A stretch of 64,000 nt of DNA from Propionibacterium sp. oral taxon 192 str. F0372 (lineage in GTDB: Bacteria; Actinomycetota; Actinomycetes; Propionibacteriales; Propionibacteriaceae): positions 2,178,581 through 2,242,580 of the forward strand of contig NZ_KE340297.1 in assembly GCF_000413315.1 (NCBI RefSeq), written 5' to 3'. The notes beneath the pieces were generated by a model. The model ran no database searches. It was not told the DNA's origin and saw only the letters and a program-made list of their open reading frames with translations. Positions 61,622 through 63,965 of this stretch are shown here, one piece after another. A program made the position numbers and the translations under genes. Positions within the stretch are counted from its first letter, which is position 1. The number at the start of each line of letters is the position of its first letter.

Positions 61622-62824
61622 ATGAAGGTTCTGGTTCTCGGTGGCGACGGTTTCTGCGGCTGGCCGGCGTCGCTGCACTTGTCGGATCGGGGCGATGCGG
61701 TGACGATCGTCGACAATTTCTCGCGTCGACGCATTGACGAGGAACTGGGAGCGCAGTCGTTGACCCCGATCCGTTCCATGGTCGAACGTCGTGCTGCCTG
61801 GAAGGAGCTCTCCGGCAAGCAAATTGATGTCGTCGAACTTGACGTCGCTCAAGACTACCAAGGGCTGAAGGAACTGCTCGACGAGGTACGCCCCGATGCC
61901 ATCGTCCACTACGCCGAACAGCGAGCCGCTCCCTATTCGATGAAATCGGCGAAGCACAAGCGTTACACCATCGACAACAACGTTAACGCCACTCATAACG
62001 TACTGTGTGCCATCGTGGACTCAGGCCAGGACATCCACTTAGTGCATCTTGGCACCATGGGGGTCTATGGTTATGGAACAGCCGGAATGGCGATCCCCGA
62101 GGGTTATCTTGAAGTGCGGATCCCTGTTACCACCGATGCGGTGGTCGAGACCGAGATCCTCTACCCCACCAATCCGGGGTCGATTTACCACATGACCAAA
62201 GTTTTGGATCAGTCAATGTTCGCTTATTATGCCAAAAACGACGAACTGCGCATCACTGACCTGCACCAGGGAATCGTTTGGGGCACTAATACGATCCAGA
62301 CCAATCTCGACGAGCGGCTGATCAACCGCTTCGACTATGACGGTGACTACGGCACGGTGCTCAACCGCTTTCTGATGCAAGCCGCAGTGGGATACCCGCT
62401 GACCGTGCATGGTACCGGCGGACAGACCCGGGCCTTCATACACATCCAGGACATGGTGCGTTGCGTGGCGATTGCTCTGGACAACCCGCCGCAGGTCGGG
62501 GAACGGGTGAAGATCTTCAACCAGATGACCGAGACTCACCGGGTGCGGGATCTGGCGAATCTGGTGGCCTCAATCACCGGGGCGAGCGTCGAAATGGTTC
62601 CCGATCCGCGTAAGGAAGCCCAGGAGAACGAACTGCTTGTGAACAACGACAACTTCCTGGGTTTGGGCTTGGAACCGATCACCCTCAATGAGGGGCTGCT
62701 CCGGGAAATCAACGAGACCGCGGCCAAATACGCCGACCGGGCTGATCACTCCCGGATTCCAGCACGTTCGGTGTGGACGGCTGCCCAACAGGCGGGGGTT
62801 CCGGCATCGGTGGAGGACCATTGA
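61622..62824 (+). CDS. sqdB: UDP-sulfoquinovose synthase (SqdB/SQD1)
   Basis: Makes UDP-sulfoquinovose from UDP-glucose and sulfite, the head-group donor of the sulfolipid SQDG. The 400 aa SDR-type protein opens VLVLGGDGFCGWPASLHL (the family's GGDGYCGW), has EQRAAPYSM, LGTMGVYG with Thr145, YHMTK with Tyr189/Lys193, HQGIVWG, and QAAVGYPLTVHGTGGQTRAFIHIQD, all as in plant and cyanobacterial SQD1. ATG 61622 has GGAG six bases before it. The SqdX-type glycosyltransferase follows four bases later, which supports a sulfolipid pathway. Confidence 0.9.
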   Translation: MKVLVLGGDGFCGWPASLHLSDRGDAVTIVDNFSRRRIDEELGAQSLTPIRSMVERRAAWKELSGKQIDVVELDVAQDYQGLKELLDEVRPDAIVHYAEQRAAPYSMKSAKHKRYTIDNNVNATHNVLCAIVDSGQDIHLVHLGTMGVYGYGTAGMAIPEGYLEVRIPVTTDAVVETEILYPTNPGSIYHMTKVLDQSMFAYYAKNDELRITDLHQGIVWGTNTIQTNLDERLINRFDYDGDYGTVLNRFLMQAAVGYPLTVHGTGGQTRAFIHIQDMVRCVAIALDNPPQVGERVKIFNQMTETHRVRDLANLVASITGASVEMVPDPRKEAQENELLVNNDNFLGLGLEPITLNEGLLREINETAAKYADRADHSRIPARSVWTAAQQAGVPASVEDH

Positions 62825-62828
62825 TACC

Positions 62829-63965
62829 GTGCGCATCGCACTGTTCACAGAGGTCTTCACCCCGAAGATCGACGGAGTGGTTACCCGGCTGTTGCGCACC
62901 CTCGATGCGCTAGCCGGGCTCGGTCACGAGGCACTGGTGTTCGCTCCTGGGAAGCCACCATGCGAGTACGCAGGCTTTGAGGTAGTCGCGGTCCGTGGAG
63001 TCAGTTTTCGACCTTGGTACCCAGAAATCACCGTTGCCCTGCCCACTCCCGCGATCGGTCGGCGTTTGGAACACTTCCGACCCGACGTGGTGCACGCATT
63101 GAATCCCGCTTGGTTGACCGGATACGGCGTGCTTGCCGCACACAGGCGTCGACTGCCCCTGCTGGCTAGTCTGCACACCCAGCTTGCCGCCTACACCGCG
63201 GACCTACATTTGTCAGCACTCACCCCGATTGCCGACAGATGGGTCACTACCTTGCACAATATGGCGCAGGTGAACCTGTGCACCTCCCCGCAGATGGTGG
63301 AGCGGGCTCACTCGATGGGCATCCAACGAGTTAGCCTGTGGCCCAAAGCCGTTGATACCCATGCCTTCCGACCCGATGCCTATACCACCCGGATGCGCAC
63401 ATTACTCACCAACGGCCATCCTGAGGCTCCGCTGGCGGTCTACGTCGGGCGGCTGTCGCCCGAGAAGAATCTGGACGATCTGTTGGAGGCCGCGCGTACT
63501 CTGCCCGGGGTGCGGTTCGCCTTCGTCGGTTCCGGGCCTGCAGCCGAGCATCTGGCCTCGCTGTATGCAGGTACCAATACCGTGTTCACCGGCTACCTGC
63601 ACGGCGAGGAATTGGCCGCAGCCTATGCTGCGGCCGACATCTTCTGTTTCCCATCCACGACCGAGACCCTAGGCCTAGCAGGGTTGGAGGCAATGGCCTC
63701 CGGGACGCCAGTCGTCGGTGCCGATGCAGGTGGTATCCCCCACTTGTTCCACGACGGGATCGAAGGCTTTCTCGTCACCCCGCATGATCGTGGTGGCTTC
63801 TCCCGCAGGATCGCTGAACTCGCTGATGACCCTGGGCTACGTTCCCGCATGGGGCAAGCCGCCCGCGCAGAGGCTGAGAAGCATTCATGGATCTCTGCCA
63901 CCTGCCGCCTCGTCGAGTTCTACGAGCAAGCTGTGGCAACCATGGGGACCTCAGGCACTCGATGA
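62829..63965 (+). CDS. sqdX: SqdX-type sulfolipid glycosyltransferase (GT4)
   Basis: Transfers sulfoquinovose from UDP-sulfoquinovose to diacylglycerol. The 378 aa GT-B protein has the SqdX-like opening RIALFTEVFTPKIDGVVTRL, HALNPAW, AQVNLCTSPQMVERAHSMGIQ with SLWPKAVDTHAF, VGRLSPEKNL, AGTNTVFTGYLHGEELAAAYA and the donor motif STTETLGLAGLEAM (EX7E). GTG 62829 is four bases after the sqdB stop. Without sqdB as neighbour, MgtA/PimB-like mannosyltransferases would be the alternative call. Confidence 0.83.
   Translation: MRIALFTEVFTPKIDGVVTRLLRTLDALAGLGHEALVFAPGKPPCEYAGFEVVAVRGVSFRPWYPEITVALPTPAIGRRLEHFRPDVVHALNPAWLTGYGVLAAHRRRLPLLASLHTQLAAYTADLHLSALTPIADRWVTTLHNMAQVNLCTSPQMVERAHSMGIQRVSLWPKAVDTHAFRPDAYTTRMRTLLTNGHPEAPLAVYVGRLSPEKNLDDLLEAARTLPGVRFAFVGSGPAAEHLASLYAGTNTVFTGYLHGEELAAAYAAADIFCFPSTTETLGLAGLEAMASGTPVVGADAGGIPHLFHDGIEGFLVTPHDRGGFSRRIAELADDPGLRSRMGQAARAEAEKHSWISATCRLVEFYEQAVATMGTSGTR

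Follow-up and report, generated by a model that had tools for sequence, protein, structure and literature searches.

A two-gene operon in the genome of Propionibacterium sp. oral taxon 192 str. F0372 appears, from its sequence, to be dedicated to the synthesis of sulfoquinovosyl diacylglycerol (SQDG), a membrane sulfolipid familiar chiefly from chloroplasts, and the cell most likely makes this lipid. The two genes lie near the end of the analysed stretch of 64,000 nucleotides of contig NZ_KE340297.1, hereafter the window (Table 1). An earlier note on this DNA had read them as a complete SqdB-SqdX pair that makes SQDG or a sulfoquinovosylated glycolipid, and this reading was upheld by the active-site residues, two phylogenetic trees, clade-specific residues, the conserved adjacency of the genes and the presence of genes for the precursors.

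Table 1. Features of the sqdB-sqdX locus (positions are those of the window)
Feature	Position	Strand	Description
sqdB	61622-62824	+	ATG start, TGA stop, 400 aa; SDR superfamily, SQD1/SqdB family
sqdX, GT4 glycosyltransferase	62829-63965	+	GTG start, 378 aa; putative sulfoquinovosyltransferase
GGAGGA within the 3' end of sqdB	62812-62817	+	probable sqdX ribosome-binding site, read from the sequence

Both reading frames were open and were separated by 4 nt (62825-62828), which confirmed the frames, the coordinates and the spacing of four bases given previously. The motifs that had been listed for SqdB, namely GGDGFCGW, Thr145 (SQD1 numbering), the YxxxK pair and QAAVGYPLTVHGTGGQTR, were all found in the sequence, as were the AQVNLCTS, LWPKAVDT and AGTNTVFTGYL segments of the glycosyltransferase. 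The description of these three segments as SqdX-type held only in part: N149 and T152 of AQVNLCTS and T251 of AGTNTVFTGYL are nearly specific to SqdX, whereas LWPKAVDT is unspecific, with its W171, V175 and D176 common to all 13 other GT4 proteins compared. Measured against five copies from the same genus, dN/dS was approximately 0.08-0.11 for sqdB and 0.14-0.23 for sqdX (rough values, dS >1). Such ratios indicate purifying selection on both genes. Inspection by eye of an alignment of 11 upstream sequences, including that of the window, revealed no shared motif. The window SqdX was more diverged from the genus copies (65-69% identity) than SqdB (84-86%, full-length copies).

A phmmer search of all PDB chains returned Arabidopsis SQD1 (1qrr, 1i24) as the best match of SqdB (327 bits, E = 1.5e-96, residues 2-385), followed at 57 bits by UDP-glucuronate decarboxylase as the next solved family. 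The earlier note had named a placement of SqdB among the other NDP-sugar epimerases as the outcome that would count against its proposal. Judged by this difference in score, SqdB did not fall among them, and a generic epimerase identity was rejected. Taken with the dN/dS values, the E-value of the SQD1 match argues that the sqdB/sqdX observation did not arise by chance. The tree of 76 hand-picked SqdB rows was split into two sides (100/100), the first containing plant and cyanobacterial clade-1 proteins and the second those of Sinorhizobium meliloti, other alphaproteobacteria, gammaproteobacteria, some cyanobacteria, Bacillota, Deinococcota and actinobacteria. The window SqdB fell in a cluster of its own family (9 rows, 99/84), nested in an actinobacterial group whose members carry an adjacent SqdX (23 rows, 98/81). 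The S. meliloti homologue was 65.8% identical to the window SqdB, and directly after it comes a glycosyl transferase gene which we take to be sqdD of a proven SQDG operon. The two-clade split of SqdB has already been published, in a text that does not contain the word actinobacteria (PMC8227023).

The homology to SQD1 is nearly full-length, and all the named active-site residues were retained: T145, Y182, H183, K186 and R101 of SQD1 (1qrr index) aligned with identical residues of the window protein. These five positions, together with M146, Q209 and R327, did not vary in 116 SqdB rows, comprising 100 of clade 2 (the window included), 12 cyanobacterial rows of clade 1 and 4 from the family that lie on the clade-1 side, with 12 duplicate or partial rows omitted from the alignment. 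Two of the three outgroup epimerase rows (L001 and L003) were wrong or fused frames and were disregarded. We assume that T145, Y182 and K186 are catalytic in SQD1 and that R101 and H183 are their neighbours. The window SqdB differs from SQD1 in its position in the second clade, in a short insertion after GTMG (GVYGYG, compared with GEYG in SQD1) and in lacking E148, which was present in none of the 100 clade-2 rows. It scored 346 bits on the NCBIfam model NF041015 (UDP-sulfoquinovose synthase equivalog), below the cut-off of 575 bits. Also under this value were the SqdB of S. meliloti (332 bits), a clade-2 cyanobacterial SqdB (331), an Oceanobacillus SqdB (340) and four cyanobacterial clade-1 SqdBs (464-476). 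As the S. meliloti and cyanobacterial proteins miss 575 bits, the NF041015 cut-off does not appear to separate SqdBs here. Two of 14 control genomes matched the model and one passed, presumably Sulfolobus acidocaldarius rather than Synechococcus elongatus. By homology and its conserved active site, the window SqdB is predicted to be a UDP-sulfoquinovose synthase.

The second protein matched the GT4 Pfam domains and contains the E-x7-E motif of retaining glycosyltransferases (E279-E287). Across the four cyanobacterial genomes searched, its best match per genome reached 45-46% identity and 320-335 bits, and the next glycosyltransferase reached no more than 93 bits among the matches listed. Its closest paralogue in its own genome (C1:1701376-1702476; 36%, 191 bits) is a separate gene in another group of the tree, and identity of the window protein with this other, commoner GT4 was thereby ruled out. 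Of 13 cyanobacterial loci with a full-length SqdB (L142-L154), 11 had a GT4 44-48% identical to the window protein no more than 700 nt downstream in the same orientation; these neighbours stand beside SqdBs of both clades (flanks of only ~1.5 kb). We take them to be SqdX from their gene position. In the GT4 tree (59 hand-picked rows, with joined long branches in the outgroup and all SqdX rows putative), an SqdX side of 45 rows, comprising the window with actinobacterial, Deinococcota, Bacillota and cyanobacterial proteins, was separated from 14 other GT4s, including the genome's own paralogue, with support of 96/89. The actinobacterial and Deinococcota SqdX proteins formed their own branch (100/100), and the end branch of the window SqdX was long (0.5). 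Eight residues (D15, T19, R20, N92, N149, T152, A231 and L281) were present in all 43 SqdX rows and in at most 2 of the 13 other GT4s, a count that omitted L069, L091 and L136 of the tree rows; R20 is a candidate site for the binding of the sulfonate or of the acceptor. On the basis of the tree, the clade-specific residues and the similar genes beside cyanobacterial sqdB, the window GT4 looks like an orthologue of SqdX.

The rarity of the pair that the earlier note had implied did not stand. The two genes were side by side in all eight genus genomes examined, of the 18 family genomes (the window's included) with an SqdB of the window type, 16 had an adjacent SqdX (flanks ~1.5 kb; the exceptions were L097 and L101), the pair is widespread in Actinomycetota, and SQDG of Oceanobacillus massiliensis is already in print. 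Within the family as a whole, any SqdB (E <= 1e-40) was distributed patchily, in 22 of 197 genomes. Among the best 80 loci of at least 585 confirmed relatives from 84,980 genomes, 29 had an SqdX-like gene in the same orientation, no more than 250 nt from where the SqdB match ends. The carriers included Citricoccus, Corynebacterium, Brevibacterium, Kocuria, Serinicoccus, Ornithinimicrobium, Gulosibacter, Trueperaceae and others, as well as two Bacillota and one cyanobacterium. Eight actinobacterial loci among these 80 had no adjacent SqdX (L033, L038, L039, L054, L063, L070, L083 and L085), and these, with the two family exceptions, indicate that UDP-sulfoquinovose may feed other acceptors. The surroundings were compared in 19 actinobacterial pair loci (~6-8 kb), selected for having the pair, with shadow frames over the pair disregarded and at least L014 and L018 omitted despite carrying it. 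Other gene families recurred in six loci at most, all six from Corynebacterium; thus, sqdB and sqdX behave as a unit of two genes.

In a sample of 396 Actinomycetota genomes, SqdB matches (E <= 1e-60, counted without a residue check) were found in 99, SqdX in 36 and both in 33; 25 of the 99 SqdB matches were at 63% identity or more and the rest at 37-53%. An SqdB was thus present in 33 of the 36 genomes with SqdX versus 66 of 360 (Fisher p ~5e-19, a value that ignores kinship). Since a single family (f19) accounted for 34 of the 36 SqdX-matching genomes, this co-occurrence is not independent evidence. The protein query recovered SqdB in 13 of 39 cyanobacterial genomes, which was judged too few; such a search therefore misses distant SqdBs, and the count of 99 in 396 may be low.

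In four genomes of the same family (G134, G028, G124 and G129; loci L090-L093), the SqdB is of another type, 43-47% identical to the window's and placed on the clade-1 side with plants and cyanobacteria. An Agl3-like label for these four proteins was dropped, as their NF041015 scores of ~470 bits resemble those of cyanobacterial clade-1 SqdBs. At L091, an SqdX-like glycosyltransferase (40% identical) lies ~30 nt from the clade-1-side SqdB. A linear plasmid of Rhodococcus qingshengii (L170 6001-10998) carries a clade-2 SqdB without an adjacent SqdX, followed by genes for a hypothetical ~640-aa protein, a large glycosyltransferase and an alkylsulfatase-like protein, neighbours that hint at another sulfoquinovose acceptor. 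Rhizobium and Agrobacterium plasmids encode a distant SqdB (44-46%), unlike that of S. meliloti.

The acceptor of the glycosyltransferase is the point at which an alternative reading has some, albeit small, probability: SqdB would make UDP-sulfoquinovose, and the GT4 would transfer the sugar to an acceptor such as an inositol lipid, lipoglycan or cell-wall glycan instead of diacylglycerol. The GT4 family spans many acceptors, the nearest solved glycosyltransferases include a D-inositol-3-phosphate enzyme, PimA and PimB', and the SqdB type occurs without an SqdX-like neighbour on the Rhodococcus plasmid and in Pseudonocardiaceae. Moreover, the N-glycans of Sulfolobus contain sulfoquinovose (PMC9594981). 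Nevertheless, the tree and the clade-specific residues unite the window GT4 with the sqdB-linked cyanobacterial GT4, apart from the genome's own paralogue, which argues against such an acceptor.

A reading in which SqdB acts as a generic epimerase or decarboxylase of NDP-sugars, with the pair building an ordinary glycolipid, is very improbable. Membership of the Epimerase Pfam family and the score below the NF041015 equivalog cut-off are compatible with such a function, but SQD1 was 270 bits better than any other solved epimerase, R101, T145, M146 and H183 were invariant throughout the aligned SqdBs, and the S. meliloti and cyanobacterial SqdBs fail the same cut-off. The patchy occurrence of SqdB in the family and the long end branch of the window SqdX could also be taken as signs of a decaying or silent acquisition without function. 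The retention of both genes throughout the genus genomes examined, their intact frames and dN/dS ratios of ~0.1-0.2 make this extremely unlikely, and a functional pair for SQDG synthesis remains the preferred reading.

With regard to the precursors of SQDG, the earlier note had suggested a search of the full genome for sulfite-generating genes. CysN, CysD and CysH were found at C1:132124-136776 of the same genome, each above the cut-off of at least one model, and a nitrite/sulfite-reductase-like protein in this region scored below every model's cut-off. GalU had no match over its cut-off in the genome; therefore, the UDPGP family was searched, and two pyrophosphorylase genes of this family were found, whose products probably make UDP-glucose. 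In the proposed pathway, SqdB with bound NAD+ would convert UDP-glucose and sulfite to UDP-sulfoquinovose, as suggested by its homology and conserved active site, and SqdX, as a retaining GT4 enzyme of the GT-B fold, would, by its orthology, transfer sulfoquinovose to diacylglycerol at the membrane. The product would be SQDG, an anionic phosphorus-free lipid. Sulfite would be derived from sulfate reduction by CysN, CysD and CysH, in which CysH would yield the sulfite, with the genes present and the flux presumed. The UDPGP-type enzymes, their substrate likewise presumed, would provide UDP-glucose, and a supply of diacylglycerol is assumed. SQDG might then take the place of phosphatidylglycerol as an anionic lipid, perhaps when phosphate is limiting.

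Directly downstream of sqdX, just past the end of the window (L009 10095-13713), are genes for a carboxyltransferase, an OAD gamma subunit, a biotin carrier and an OAD beta subunit, which resemble a sodium-pumping methylmalonyl-CoA or oxaloacetate decarboxylase. They are followed by a gene whose 519-aa product matches part of an Hsp70 domain (L009 13833-15392). Neither the decarboxylase-type operon nor the Hsp70-like gene was spotted among the 12 gene families listed (unnamed) as common to at least three of the 19 pair loci.

Compared with SqdX/SQD2 of cyanobacteria and plants, the window GT4 shares the tree side and the clade-specific residues of the cyanobacterial sqdB neighbours, but it lies in its own actinobacterial-Deinococcota branch of a tree built from putative bacterial SqdX proteins, and its acceptor is predicted. 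The operon logic is similar to that of sqdBDC of Rhodobacter sphaeroides and S. meliloti, the SqdB of the latter belonging to the window's clade. In R. sphaeroides, however, SQDG synthesis requires SqdB, SqdA, SqdC and SqdD, with sqdB in the sqdBDC operon, and SqdA, SqdC and SqdD act after SqdB, with no SqdX (PMC11346425). SQDG was listed among the polar lipids of the Gram-positive Oceanobacillus massiliensis (PMC4062624). Its congener O. rekensis has a clade-2 SqdB (L040), and its SqdX-like gene (L123, 37%) lies at a separate place in the genome. Such Bacillota are likewise heterotrophic and Gram-positive, and O. rekensis has the same gene types, but they belong to another phylum, in which sqdB and sqdX are seldom adjacent (2 of 7 loci). 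SQDG also occurs in Marinococcus and Salinicoccus. No report of SQDG in any actinobacterium was found among the papers listed by the literature searches, several of which were loose and showed a small share of their matches, with most subscription journals outside. Since it is present in many related bacteria, the actinobacterial sqdB-sqdX is a further case of a known SQDG gene pair, well supported and not exotic.

A 2026 review assigned the production of sulfoquinovose to phototrophs and certain archaea and its degradation to heterotrophs (PMC12890257), and sqdB in environmental heterotrophic bacteria was cited after Villanueva 2014 (PMC4796936). In a Baltic metatranscriptome, high expression of SQD1 and SQD2 was credited to picocyanobacteria, and Actinobacteria were major expressers of other lipid-remodelling genes (PMC13086504).

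We tentatively propose, as a possibility short of an even chance, that SQDG is a regular but overlooked anionic lipid of many heterotrophic Actinomycetota, that heterotrophs would thus be standing producers of sulfoquinovose alongside phototrophs and some archaea, and that UDP-sulfoquinovose decorates cell-surface glycans where SqdX is missing. Corynebacterium, Kocuria and Brevibacterium are heterotrophs, and if the pair acts as proposed, they would blur the division between phototrophic producers and heterotrophic degraders. A phosphorus-free anionic lipid would likewise be added to actinobacterial membranes, and the pair would offer a ready two-gene system in which to study SQDG outside photosynthesis.
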